Positions 45,074 through 50,120 of a stretch of 64,000 bases of DNA are shown here, in pieces. Source of the DNA: Methanolobus chelungpuianus (GTDB lineage Archaea; Halobacteriota; Methanosarcinia; Methanosarcinales; Methanosarcinaceae); contig NZ_JTEO01000004.1 in NCBI RefSeq assembly GCF_024500045.1, positions 310,001 through 374,000 of the forward strand. Direction: 5' to 3'. The position numbers and the translations under genes were made by a program. Every line of letters begins with the position of its first letter. Positions within the stretch are counted from its first letter, which is position 1. The notes under the pieces were generated by a model that did no database searches, was not told where the DNA came from, and worked only from the letters and a program-made list of their open reading frames with translations.

Positions 45074-45088
45074 TTGGTATCATGCCAA
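45074..45088. promoter_or_regulatory. Operator-like site upstream of the DtxR-like gene
   Basis: TTGGTATCATGCCAA is palindromic in six of seven pairs. Related sites lie before the metal-importer genes at 45593-45607 and 45613-45628. It sits upstream of an AT-rich TATA-like region before the regulator gene, a usual place for autoregulation. Confidence 0.5.
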
Positions 45089-45154
45089 ATTTTGACTATC
45101 CTGTCCGCCTAAAATCCAAAAGAATAAATATCTCCGGTTTGTAATCCTTGCTCT

Positions 45155-45577
45155 ATGCAGGAGATCACAGGACTTGAGCTTTCACCAAAGAAAGTAGAAT
45201 ACTTGAAGTTCCTTTTTAAGAAAGGGGGTCTTGTAAGGACTACGGACATCTCTTCCCAGTTACAGGTAGACCCTTCCACATCGACCAAGACGATAGCAGA
45301 CCTTGCCGGGACAGGGCTTGTTGAACACATTCCCTACAGGGGTGTGAGGCTGACGGAGAAAGGCCAGCTGTATGCCGAATTCCTTGTCAACAGGCACAAT
45401 ATCCTGAGCCTTATGCTGAGCCACTACGGTCTGTCGTCCGAGGAAGCATGTGCTGAGACCGCAAGGTTCGAGTCTTTCGTTTCCAAGGATGCCGTGGACA
45501 AAATATGCAGTTCCATGGGTCACCCGCAGACCGGGGTTTGCGGCAAGATCCGGCATATATCCTGTGGCATTCTCTGA
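45155..45577 (+). CDS. DtxR/MntR-like metal-dependent regulator
   Basis: A 140-residue regulator. A winged-helix HTH (residues about 1-62, VRTTDISSQLQVDPSTSTKTI) leads to a dimerisation domain (EEACAETARFESFVSKDAVDKI). This is the DtxR/MntR pattern, but the Glu-His ligand pair usual after EEAC-x2-AC-x2-E is replaced by Glu-Ser. A tail with Cys and His (SSMGHPQTGVCG and SCGIL) may add metal contacts. No SH3 domain is present. It lies just before a metal importer and shares operator-like sites with it, so metal-responsive repression is likely. Confidence 0.85.
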   Translation: MQEITGLELSPKKVEYLKFLFKKGGLVRTTDISSQLQVDPSTSTKTIADLAGTGLVEHIPYRGVRLTEKGQLYAEFLVNRHNILSLMLSHYGLSSEEACAETARFESFVSKDAVDKICSSMGHPQTGVCGKIRHISCGIL

Positions 45578-45592
45578 TTGATATGCAGAATG

Positions 45593-45607
45593 TTGGTATA
45601 TGGCCAA
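45593..45607. promoter_or_regulatory. Second operator-like site, before the metal importer
   Basis: TTGGTATATGGCCAA matches the 45074 site in most positions (TTGG, TAT, CCAA) with four outer pairs inverted. It lies 70 bases before the substrate-binding-protein ATG. Confidence 0.45.
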
Positions 45608-45612
45608 AATCA

Positions 45613-45628
45613 GTGGTATCAATCCAAA
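45613..45628. promoter_or_regulatory. Third operator-like site, overlapping the importer TATA region
   Basis: GTGGTATCAATCCAAA closely matches the 45074 site plus its flank (TTGGTATCATGCCAAA). The following AATTTAAAG is a TATA-like element, so protein bound here would hinder transcription of the importer. Confidence 0.45.
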
Positions 45629-45663: not shown

Positions 45664-46584
45664 ATGAGAAAATTGTGTATGGCGTTCGTTCTGTTATTAT
45701 CCCTGGGTCTTGTCCTCACCAGTGGTTGTACTGACGGGCCGGAAGCATCCGCTTCCCTGGATAAGCCTATTGTTGCAGTGAGCATCCTTCCGCAGGCTGA
45801 GTTCGTTGAAAAGATCGCAGGGGATAATGTAAAGGTGCTTGTTATGGTTCCTGCAGGCGCTGATCCGCATACTTATGAGATAACATCCGGGCAGCTTAGG
45901 GATCTGAGCAAGGCCCGGATGTATGTAAAGGTGGGCTCCGGGCTGGATTTTGAGAAAGTGTGGATGGACAGGCTGATAGCCCAGAATCCGGATATGCTTA
46001 TAGTGGATTCATCAAGTGGCATAACGCTCAGGACAATGGAGGCTCATGATGAAGGGTCTGATGAGGAATATGAAGCCGGGGAGTACAATGAAAGTCTCAC
46101 CAAGGATCCTCATATCTGGACATCCCCTCAGCAGGCAAAGGTAATGGTCAACAATACCTATGCAGGACTTGTGGAGATCGACCCGGATAATCAGGAACTG
46201 TACATGCAGAACAGGGACGCCTATCTCGCAGAGCTGGATGCGGCAGATGCCACGATCCGGGAAACCCTTGCAGGTAAGGAAGGCAGCAGTTTTATAGTGT
46301 ATCATCCTTCCTGGGGATACTTTGCGGATACCTACGGCTTGGACGAGATCTCTGTGGAGATTGAGGGCAAGGAGCCAAGTGCGAAGGATATGCAGCGCCT
46401 GGTAGATGCTGCAAAGGAAAAGAATGTCAAGGTGATATTCGTGCAGCCCGGTTTCAGTACCACAAGCACCAAGGCTATCGCTGCTGAGATAAATGCCGAG
46501 GTAGTAGCGGTCGATCCCCTTGCAAAAGATTATATAGATAACCTTGCAAAGGTAACCGCAGCATTTGAAAAAGGGCTGGCTTAA
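45664..46584 (+). CDS. znuA: Metal ABC transporter substrate-binding protein (ZnuA/cluster A-I)
   Basis: A 306-residue lipoprotein with a signal ending LTSGC (Cys residue 22). The zinc/manganese-binding fold has metal ligands in VPAGADPHTYEIT (His near 64), the KDPHIWTSP motif (His near 143), YHPSWGYFADTYG (His near 204) and a late Asp (VDPLAKDY). An acidic loop (residues about 120-140, HDEGSDEEYEAGEY) replaces the His-rich loop of classic ZnuA. The GGAGGT ribosome site is before the ATG. It captures a divalent metal for the importer; zinc or manganese is likely. Confidence 0.9.
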   Translation: MRKLCMAFVLLLSLGLVLTSGCTDGPEASASLDKPIVAVSILPQAEFVEKIAGDNVKVLVMVPAGADPHTYEITSGQLRDLSKARMYVKVGSGLDFEKVWMDRLIAQNPDMLIVDSSSGITLRTMEAHDEGSDEEYEAGEYNESLTKDPHIWTSPQQAKVMVNNTYAGLVEIDPDNQELYMQNRDAYLAELDAADATIRETLAGKEGSSFIVYHPSWGYFADTYGLDEISVEIEGKEPSAKDMQRLVDAAKEKNVKVIFVQPGFSTTSTKAIAAEINAEVVAVDPLAKDYIDNLAKVTAAFEKGLA

Positions 46585-47334
46585 ATGGCTGAAGTGATCG
46601 ATCTCAAGGATGTCTGGGTAAGTTATGGCAATACTCCCGTGCTCGAAGCAGTGGATCTTGTGGTAGAGGACAGGGACTTCCTTGCAATAATAGGTCCCAA
46701 CGGGGGAGGCAAGAGCACCCTCCTGAAGGTGATCCTTGGATTGGTCAAACCTGACCGCGGTTCGGTCAGGCTCTTGGGTGACGATCCTAAAAAGACCCGC
46801 AAATACGCGGGTTATGTTCCCCAGTATATCTCTTCTAACCTTGATTTCCCCATAAGCGTGTGGGAAGTCGTCCTCATGGGATGCCTTGGTCACAAGGGTC
46901 CCTTCAGGGGATACAACGAAGATGACAGGAAAGCCGCCTATGAGGCCCTCAAGGTCGTGGATATGCTGGATTACAGGGACCGCCAGATAGGTGAGCTTTC
47001 CGGCGGACAGAAGCAAAGGGTTTTCATTGCCAGGTCACTTGTCACGCGCCCCAGGCTGCTGATCCTGGACGAGCCTTCCACAGGCATAGATTCAAAACGG
47101 CAGAGGGAGTTCTATGAGCTTCTCAACCGGCTCAAGTCCGAAATTGCTATTTTGCTTGTTACCCACGACATGAGCGCCCTGTCGGTCTATGTGGACAAGG
47201 TCGCCTGCCTTAACAGGAGGCTGCATTATCACAACTCCAAAGAGCTCAGCCCGAAGGACCTTGAAGCAGCTTATCAGTGCCCTGTGGAACTGATAGCACA
47301 CGGTGTCCCTCACAGGGTCCTGAAGATCCATTGA
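46585..47334 (+). CDS. znuC: Metal ABC transporter ATP-binding protein (ZnuC-like)
   Basis: A 249-residue ABC ATPase. Walker A GPNGGGKSTLLK near residue 36, signature LSGGQKQRVFIARSL near 139, Walker B LLILDEPSTGID near 157 and LVTHDMSAL near 191 are clear. It starts right at the stop of the binding-protein gene. C-terminal CPVELIAHGVPHRVLKIH may include metal-sensing His residues typical of the group. It energises metal import. Confidence 0.92.
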   Translation: MAEVIDLKDVWVSYGNTPVLEAVDLVVEDRDFLAIIGPNGGGKSTLLKVILGLVKPDRGSVRLLGDDPKKTRKYAGYVPQYISSNLDFPISVWEVVLMGCLGHKGPFRGYNEDDRKAAYEALKVVDMLDYRDRQIGELSGGQKQRVFIARSLVTRPRLLILDEPSTGIDSKRQREFYELLNRLKSEIAILLVTHDMSALSVYVDKVACLNRRLHYHNSKELSPKDLEAAYQCPVELIAHGVPHRVLKIH

Positions 47335-47348
47335 AACGCGAGGATCCC

Positions 47349-48167
47349 ATGTTAGAAATACTACAATACGGCTTCATGAGGAATGCCATCATGGCAGCGA
47401 TCCTTGCAAGCATTGCCTGCGGCATTATAGGCGTATATGTCGTTGTCAAAAAGGTTGCCTCCCTGAGCGGCGGCATCTCTCATGCATCCTTTGGCGGAAT
47501 AGGCCTGGGATACTATCTTGGTGTGAATCCCATGTATGGGCTGGTGCCTTTCAGTCTCCTGTCTGCCATTGCAATGGGTATAACAAGTAAAAGGACCAAG
47601 GTTGCAGAGGATACTGCAATTGGTATCCTGTGGTCGCTGGGTATGGCTATAGGCATCATCCTGATCTACCTGACTCCCGGGTATGCGCCGGACCTGATGA
47701 CCTACCTTTTCGGGAACATACTTACGGTGCCGCTCTCTGACATTTACCTCATGCTGGCTCTTGATGCGGTCATTATCCTGGTGGTCTATGCCTATTATAA
47801 GGAATTCATGTCCCTGTGCTTTGACGAGGAGTTCGCCACGGTGGCAGGGATCAATGTGGAGCGCCTTTATCTCTTACTGCTCTGCCTGATAGCACTGACG
47901 ATAGTCCTGCTCATCAAGGTGGTGGGAATAATCCTTATAATAGCACTGCTTACCATGCCGGCTTCTTTGAGCAGCCATTATACGAAAAACCTCAGAAAGA
48001 TGATGTACATGTCCATGTTCCTTGGCGCGCTCTTCAGCATTACCGGCCTGGCACTCTCATATATCTATGACGTGCCTTCAGGGGCCACTATCATCCTTGT
48101 GATGTCAGCAGTGTACCTGCTGCATTTTGTGTACCATGCTGTCAGGCCAAGGATCGTACGTGCCTGA
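47349..48167 (+). CDS. znuB: Metal ABC transporter permease (ZnuB-like)
   Basis: A 272-residue membrane permease with about eight helices. It has the ABC-3 family features SLSGGISHASFGGIGLGYYLG near residue 38, LTMPASLSSHYTKNLRKMMYMS near residue 200 and a long C-terminal pair of helices. ATG at 47349 is 15 bases after the ATPase stop. It completes the importer znuACB. Confidence 0.92.
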   Translation: MLEILQYGFMRNAIMAAILASIACGIIGVYVVVKKVASLSGGISHASFGGIGLGYYLGVNPMYGLVPFSLLSAIAMGITSKRTKVAEDTAIGILWSLGMAIGIILIYLTPGYAPDLMTYLFGNILTVPLSDIYLMLALDAVIILVVYAYYKEFMSLCFDEEFATVAGINVERLYLLLLCLIALTIVLLIKVVGIILIIALLTMPASLSSHYTKNLRKMMYMSMFLGALFSITGLALSYIYDVPSGATIILVMSAVYLLHFVYHAVRPRIVRA

Positions 48168-48174
48168 TGCTGTC

Positions 48175-48846
48175 CTATTCGCTGCTCTCGCCCAGCAGCT
48201 CTTTCATTTTCTCAAGGACCATTACTGCATCCTGTCTCTTGATGTCCGCTTCATGCTCCCTGCAGTAATCAAGAAGTTCTGCTGCTTTCTGTTGAGGTAT
48301 GATCCCATTCCTGGCGGCCTCTTTTGTTAACCAGAAATAGTTTCTCTCTGCGTAGTGCATCCTCTTGGCAAGGCCTGTCAGCCCGGTGCAGCTTTCCTGG
48401 TCAATTATGCCTTTTGCGGAAGCAGCCAGCAGTGTCTCTCTTATGTTCACCATGGGGCTTGAGACGGGCTCAAAGGTGTCCGGATTGGTTGCCACTGCAA
48501 CTTCGTCATCATCCTCGATCACCCCGTCCCTGTACCATTCATATATCCTTCCCACTCCTATCATCCCGTGAACGTCAAGCTCCGAGGCCCTCAGGGCTCC
48601 CATGCTGCACCCGCCCACCACTGTCACCCCCTCATCCATCGCCCTGATTATCTCCTTGTGGGCAACGGCTGCACGGCTGAAGAAGACCCCGTCAATGATG
48701 CCGACCAGCGTGTATCCTGCCCTGACTGCTTCTTCCATGTTCCCCCGGAACACCGGCGGACGGTAGTCAATGCCGAGTATCTTTCTTGCTTCCTCGTGGC
48801 TGATGCTCGTGCCTGTGAACACCAGCGCTTTCCTGGGACTGCTCAT
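48175..48846 (-). CDS. tfuA: TfuA-like protein, partner of YcaO
   Basis: A 223-residue TfuA-domain protein. FTGTSISHEEARKIL near the N terminus, VGIIDGVFFSRAAVAHKEI and VVGGCSMGALRASELD mark the family. In methanogens TfuA with YcaO is required for thioamidation of a glycine in McrA, by genetic evidence in Methanosarcina acetivorans. Its ATG overlaps the ycaO stop by four bases, confirming a coupled pair. A Ser nucleophile in GGCSMGA is suggestive of a hydrolase-like role, unproven. Confidence 0.9.
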   Translation of the reverse strand: MSSPRKALVFTGTSISHEEARKILGIDYRPPVFRGNMEEAVRAGYTLVGIIDGVFFSRAAVAHKEIIRAMDEGVTVVGGCSMGALRASELDVHGMIGVGRIYEWYRDGVIEDDDEVAVATNPDTFEPVSSPMVNIRETLLAASAKGIIDQESCTGLTGLAKRMHYAERNYFWLTKEAARNGIIPQQKAAELLDYCREHEADIKRQDAVMVLEKMKELLGESSE

Positions 48847-50120
48847 TTCCTGGGCCTCTGTCTCCAGGGTCTTTCCTCCGGAGATAGTTTCTTTTTCTTT
48901 CCTGCCCTTAACCGGCTTCCCATCCTTTCCCTGTCAAGGGTGTACATCTCGAAGGCAGGTACTACGGCCCTGATCACCGGGATGGGTATGCTCTTCCTTG
49001 ACAGGTCCACTATTGCTGCTATATCCACAACATTACGAAGCTCCTGCAGGACTGTTCCGATATTCTCAGCAGGACTGCTTCCCGAGAGATCCTCAATATC
49101 GCTCACAGCGACCTTTTCTCCCTCGTCGTACCAATACCTGTTCATGCGCCTGATCCTGTCATAGCCGATCTGCCTGACAAAGTTCTCGCGGTCGGTATCC
49201 TCGCGTGCTCCGTGTATCTGTACCACCCTGGACTGGGCTGCTTCCGTCAGTGCTCTTTTCACTGCAATTTCCGGCTTAAGGTGGGCCCCCGCTCCCATAA
49301 CAAGCAGCGCAGCATCCCTGAGCTTTATGTCATCAGTGGCTGCAACAACAGTGGTGACCCGGGTGTCGTGGGGCAGTAACCATAGCCTGACATCGACTTC
49401 ATTGTCCCGGAACCTGCGCAGCAGTTCATAGTTTTCCCCGTCTTCCGGTGTAAGTATGATCTCTTTGCCGGGGGACCGGTTATACTCGGCAATACTCAGG
49501 GCGTCCCTCTCGATCACTTCCAGCAGGCCATGGAGGATCGCTTCTTCGGGCGTGTTGCCCGCAGCAAGGCCGTTGGTATTGGACCTGAACAGTTTTGCAG
49601 CTCTTCCGGGTGCGTTATATGGATGGAAGACCGCATTTGCAGGGACAGCGACCTCTTCGTTTCTGAGGAGGTCCCATCCGGTCGTCCATTCCACCAGGTG
49701 CTCCGGGGTGTAGGCTTCGGACAGAAGAAGGGATACTGGATCGACTGCAGCGCCCCTGGCAGAAGCTCCCTCGAATGTATCAATGAAGTAAGGAGAAGAG
49801 ATGTCTTCCTCTATGTCCTTGTTCAGGCCGCTTCTCTCGGCAAGGCATCTTTCATAACTCTCCATCATTGCGGATATACGTGCCTGGTTCTCATTGCTCC
49901 CTTTTCCCGAATATACGGAAATAGCTCCCTCTGCGGCACTCGGCCTGACAGTTGTGATCACGGGTATGCCTATCCTGTCAAGGTCCGTTATGCCTGCAAC
50001 CCGGGTAACCCCTATCCTCTCAAGTTTGCTCTTTGCATTTTCAAGGGTGGCTTCCTCACTGAGCACCCGTTGTGTGCCCTTGATGTATCGGAGCGATCTG
50101 TCTATTGTTATCTCTGGCAT
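48843..50120 (-). CDS. ycaO: YcaO-type McrA glycine thioamidation enzyme
   Basis: A 425-residue YcaO protein. Conserved parts are GKGSNENQARISAMMESYERCLAE split near residue 75 onward, GLAAGNTPEEAILHGLLEVIERDALS near 195 and EAAQSRVVQIHGAR near 295, with Glu/Gln/Arg residues that bind ATP-magnesium. It activates the McrA glycine amide with ATP so sulfide or a sulfur donor can form thioglycine. Paired with TfuA. It is divergent from a small ORF and cysteine desulfurase, which could supply sulfur; this is an inference. Confidence 0.9.
   Translation of the reverse strand: MPEITIDRSLRYIKGTQRVLSEEATLENAKSKLERIGVTRVAGITDLDRIGIPVITTVRPSAAEGAISVYSGKGSNENQARISAMMESYERCLAERSGLNKDIEEDISSPYFIDTFEGASARGAAVDPVSLLLSEAYTPEHLVEWTTGWDLLRNEEVAVPANAVFHPYNAPGRAAKLFRSNTNGLAAGNTPEEAILHGLLEVIERDALSIAEYNRSPGKEIILTPEDGENYELLRRFRDNEVDVRLWLLPHDTRVTTVVAATDDIKLRDAALLVMGAGAHLKPEIAVKRALTEAAQSRVVQIHGAREDTDRENFVRQIGYDRIRRMNRYWYDEGEKVAVSDIEDLSGSSPAENIGTVLQELRNVVDIAAIVDLSRKSIPIPVIRAVVPAFEMYTLDRERMGSRLRAGKKKKLSPEERPWRQRPRK

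Follow-up and report, generated by a model that had tools for sequence, protein, structure and literature searches.

Genes and sites at the locus

The locus consists of a small regulator gene followed by the three genes of a metal ABC importer. It lies in a 64-kb stretch of Methanolobus DNA that was analysed as a whole (the window); its features are collected in Table 1. The order regulator, binding protein, ATPase, permease is found in nearly all Methanolobus loci. In Methanosarcina and Methanomethylovorans the importer lies close downstream of the regulator. At 48175-50120 lie a TfuA and a YcaO gene convergent with the importer, a neighbourhood kept in nearly all Methanolobus loci.

Table 1. 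Features of the locus, in window coordinates
Feature	Position	Strand	Details
Operator 1, distal, 5' of regulator, ATTGGTATCATGCCAAA	45073..45089	+	-82 from regulator ATG; matrix score 12.5
Decayed operator 2, 5' of regulator, TCCGCCTAAAATCCAAA	45104..45120	+	-51 from ATG; matrix score -2.7
Likely regulator promoter, TATA-like, AGAATAAATAT	45121..45131	+	directly 3' of operator 2; inferred
zntR-like regulator of the DtxR family, 140 aa, no SH3 domain	45155..45577	+	PF01325 and PF02742 above cut-off
Operator 3, 5' of importer, GTTGGTATATGGCCAAA	45592..45608	+	matrix score 15.4, top score of the window
Operator 4, 5' of importer, AGTGGTATCAATCCAAA	45612..45628	+	matrix score 13.0; 20 bp past operator 3
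znuA, metal-binding lipoprotein, invariant H69, H150, H214	45664..46584	+	PF01297, E 3e-70
znuC, ABC ATPase	46585..47334	+	PF00005; gene order kept
znuB, permease	47349..48167	+	PF00950, E 9e-83; gene order kept

The initial annotation had described three copies of one operator-like motif: TTGGTATCATGCCAA (45074-45088), TTGGTATATGGCCAA (45593-45607) and GTGGTATCAATCCAA (45613-45627). These were scored with a 17-bp weight matrix iterated from the sequences on either side of the regulator in 25 further genomes, omitting the window genome and its 99% twin L060. The matrix comprises 94 sites and holds 15.7 bits. It describes a 17-bp dyad whose left arm is strongest at TTTGG and whose right arm is strongest at CAAA. 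Scanned over the window, it ranks the three copies first to third, the fourth-best place scoring 11.1. The copies are confirmed where they had been placed, and their conservation among relatives (see below) makes them look like genuine regulatory sites.

A fourth, decayed copy (about 45104-45120) had been missed. Its right half-site alone is left in the window; relatives have an operator there. In the place of the TATA-like element directly following it, relatives carry, for instance, AAAAAGCATATATA. The third copy had been thought to lie over the TATA region of the importer, which is unproven: TATA-like bases occur within the second copy and just 3' of the third.

The regulator and its likely metal

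The regulator combines the N-terminal winged-helix domain with the dimerisation and metal domain of the DtxR/MntR family. Its AlphaFold2 model (mean pLDDT 88) plainly predicts the fold of this family, whose structures match it over nearly the full length with Z scores of 13-18. The best PDB match is the manganese repressor DR2539 (Z 18.1, rmsd 1.8 over 129 residues). The first search covered 24 genomes of the genus, and each has an orthologue of 74-99% identity. They are also found in Methanosarcina (65-71%, adjoining the importer), in Methanomethylovorans (71%) and in one Methanoregula (55%).

Ligands were mapped by a gapless alignment to Bacillus subtilis MntR, extended by two residues to reach D8. 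The MntR metal ligands, which we take to be D8, E11, H77, E99, E102 and H103, correspond to K12, E15, H81, A103, E106 and S107. Three of the six are replaced, so that the regulator lacks the full ligand set of the manganese subfamily. As had been proposed, it is a small, ligand-altered protein of DtxR type (140 aa). The replacements are K for D8, A or S for E99, and S or A for H103. The NCBIfam MntR models reach 56-69 bits with the regulator, below their cut-offs. Across 30 regulator orthologues, H81, C99, E106, C118, H123, C129 and C137 do not vary, and H134 is nearly invariant. If the alignment is anchored on the conserved Glu, C99 would align with His98 of DtxR, an ancillary ligand.

The binding protein shows the histidine set that was counted as marking ZnuA: H69, H150 and H214 are invariant in an alignment of 38 sequences. 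A His-rich loop between H69 and H150 is present in most ZnuA relatives; in the window species this metal loop (46040-46110) is mostly acidic. The binding-protein family also takes in manganese and zinc/manganese members, and NCBIfam matches of both kinds were obtained, all below cut-off.

As to the metal, the initial annotation had left manganese, zinc and iron open. One alternative is that the regulator is of the MntR/IdeR type and answers to manganese or iron, controlling an importer of that metal. It would agree with the nearest solved structures, which are manganese and iron repressors, and with the top NCBIfam match of the binding protein, a manganese-importer model that stays below cut-off. 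It is nevertheless improbable, given the replaced ligands, the invariant C99, C118, H123, C129 and C137, the HHH-type binding protein with the His-rich loop, and the COG0523 genes that share the operator (see below). Zinc, and not manganese or iron, is most likely the signal metal, since the histidines of the binding protein, the invariant Cys and His residues of the regulator, the COG0523 targets, an operator before a second ZnuA-family gene and the published prediction of ZntR all favour it, if indirectly.

The operator across genomes

The positions of the sites are conserved. Among 27 Methanolobus-type loci, a site at -79 to -82 from the regulator start gives 24 matches and one at -50/-51 gives 22, the -51 site touching the TATA-like box of the regulator. 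Both regulator-promoter sites occur together in 19 of the 27, and an importer pair spaced 19-21 bp is likewise found in 19; shuffled controls gave neither arrangement (0).

More distant relatives carry the operator too. Within the order, two genomes from a different family have the perfect dyad TTTGGAGTNACTCCAAA just 5' of the regulator-importer operon. Eleven order relatives have a ZnuA homologue, and an operator stands before that operon only in the two with a closer regulator (47-49%); in the other nine it was not found close upstream of the homologue. In one genome (L069/L143) the importer has been lost, while the regulator and the sites are kept. There (L143, G020:C43) the sites remain beside a convergent TfuA gene. 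In another genome (G006) a second regulator copy with its own operators (L136:3021-3446) is located between two CbiX-type chelatase genes.

The sites might belong to another DtxR paralogue, the adjacent gene being a bystander. The window genome does contain two further DtxR-like genes; the motif was found near neither of them, and across families it follows the adjacent regulator even where the importer is gone. This makes a paralogue a very unlikely owner. The co-occurrence of site and regulator, the survival of the sites where the importer is lost and their absence near the paralogues are evidence, though not proof, that the motif is bound by the adjacent regulator. Autoregulation together with repression of the importer by this DtxR-type protein, as first suggested, is the best reading of the conserved operator that both promoters share.

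The number of sites in the genome is a different matter. The initial annotation had named a random genome-wide frequency of the motif as grounds for refutation. Single dyads with two mismatches do occur at background level in the genome (2.6 Mb in 71 contigs), with 68 matches against 64 in the control, which formally is that outcome. A regulon of one locus is not refuted by such a count. Since single sites are common genome-wide, the evidence lies in clustering, position and conservation, not in the count. In the window, TTGGTATNNNNCCAA with one mismatch allowed has 5 matches against 1.03 expected, and none of 100 shuffles reached 5. Three sites with matrix scores as strong as those of the three copies, placed in the two gaps, did not arise in any of 2000 dinucleotide shuffles. 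A paired-site search of 27 genomes recovered the importer promoter in most of them, with chance matches besides. Strong matches elsewhere in the window genome (C4:217475, C4:675535, C6:260740 and C4:36024) were dropped, as they lie inside open frames. That these dyads arose by chance in intergenic DNA rich in A+T, as the control-level frequency of single sites might suggest, is hardly credible, being contradicted by the shuffles in the two gaps and by positions and spacing that are fixed in most of the 27 loci and in none of the shuffled controls.

Beyond the locus, matrix matches led to COG0523/G3E GTPase genes in sister species, whose promoters were outside the training set. In 10 of 12 genomes a COG0523 gene of zinc-chaperone type (MDAIIIGGFLGSGKTTTVINVGK) is preceded at -81 to -85 by a site scoring at least 13; in one more the site lies at -284. 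An operator also precedes two additional COG0523 genes of roughly 238 aa, at -89 and -82. It was not found before any of the 20 genes sampled from a different COG0523 type, marked by MKVIIIGGFLGSGKTT-LRNL or a close variant of it. The claim that the sites stand only before the regulator and the importer holds for the window genome, as far as tested, where no COG0523 gene with an operator was found; sister species have more targets.

Several of these places show features of their own. COG0523 genes of one GTPase type with a strong operator at a fixed distance of -81 to -89 occur in other Methanolobus genomes (L146, L147, L150, L160, L164, L167, L192, L197 and L200-L202), and DUF169-like genes lie near some operator-bearing COG0523 genes. 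In G006 a 702-aa second ZnuA-family protein with two matched stretches (L151:1862-3970) has operators at its upstream end. In G021 several operator-like sites lie in the gap between two SBP_bac_5 binding-protein genes of nickel/peptide type (L137:2236-6130). Similar dyads also occur in five Methanolobus genomes in a divergent promoter of a pilin-anchored PBP_like_2 and PhoU pair (L131-L135). Opposite this pair lie further genes, which in two genomes are an MgtE pair, and the dyads there are not attributed to the zntR-like regulator.

A probable zinc-uptake control unit and its known counterparts

Taken as a whole, the locus can be read as a zinc-uptake control unit, zntR-znuACB, in which the regulator represses the importer of zinc; we give this reading a probability of roughly 0.8. 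In this model, a zinc-loaded, dimeric DtxR-family repressor would bind the dyad TTTGG-N7-CCAAA. Paired dimers would sit 20 bp (two helical turns) apart on the importer promoter and, in relatives, 30 bp (three turns) apart on the regulator's own promoter, probably on one face of the helix. There they may block TBP/TFB or polymerase and hinder promoter recognition. When zinc is scarce, the repressor would be released, and importer and regulator would be expressed.

A more specific proposal, which we hold at even odds, is that the repressor has abandoned the usual MntR/DtxR activating site. Zinc would instead be sensed at a rebuilt site of Cys and His residues drawn from H81, C99, C118, H123, C129, H134 and C137, with repression by paired dimers at a clade-specific spacing.

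Zinc is needed by the methanol:CoM methyltransferases of methanogens. Archaeal DtxR-family regulons were reportedly surveyed by Leyn and Rodionov in 2015, with zinc regulons named ZntR among them; their regulator family and approach are the same as here.

The closest known counterpart comes from Methanosarcina. In M. acetivorans, the MntR/DtxR-like ZntR (MA0022) was predicted in 2009 to control znuABC and the COG0523 gene MA4381 (PMC2770081). Both systems have an MntR/DtxR-like regulator linked to a znu importer, and candidate sites before zntR, znu and one COG0523 gene, the last here in sister species only. They differ in spacing: 20 bp separate the importer pair in Methanolobus, against about 40 bp in Methanosarcina, and the two sites of the Methanolobus regulator promoter lie 30 bp from each other. 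Also, an operator-bearing COG0523 gene was not found in the window genome. The system is most likely the already predicted archaeal ZntR zinc control in another genus, and the regulatory link is not new. Here a ZntR-type system has been followed across the genus Methanolobus.

Bacterial Zur is a zinc-responsive regulator of znuABC and of COG0523 genes (PMC2770081). Zur belongs to the Fur family and the regulator here to the DtxR family, so the two are analogous in role only. Since the archaeal genomes sequenced by 2009 reportedly lacked a recognisable Fur or Zur (PMC2770081), a DtxR-family zinc sensor would be the equivalent.

Within its own family, the regulator shares the two-domain DtxR fold without SH3 with MntR of Bacillus subtilis (1on1/2f5f) and with DR2539 (8pw0), at 26-31% identity. 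It differs from both in the replacement of D8, E99 and H103 and in its Cys/His tail. The locus opens a change of metal specificity inside one repressor family to precise testing.
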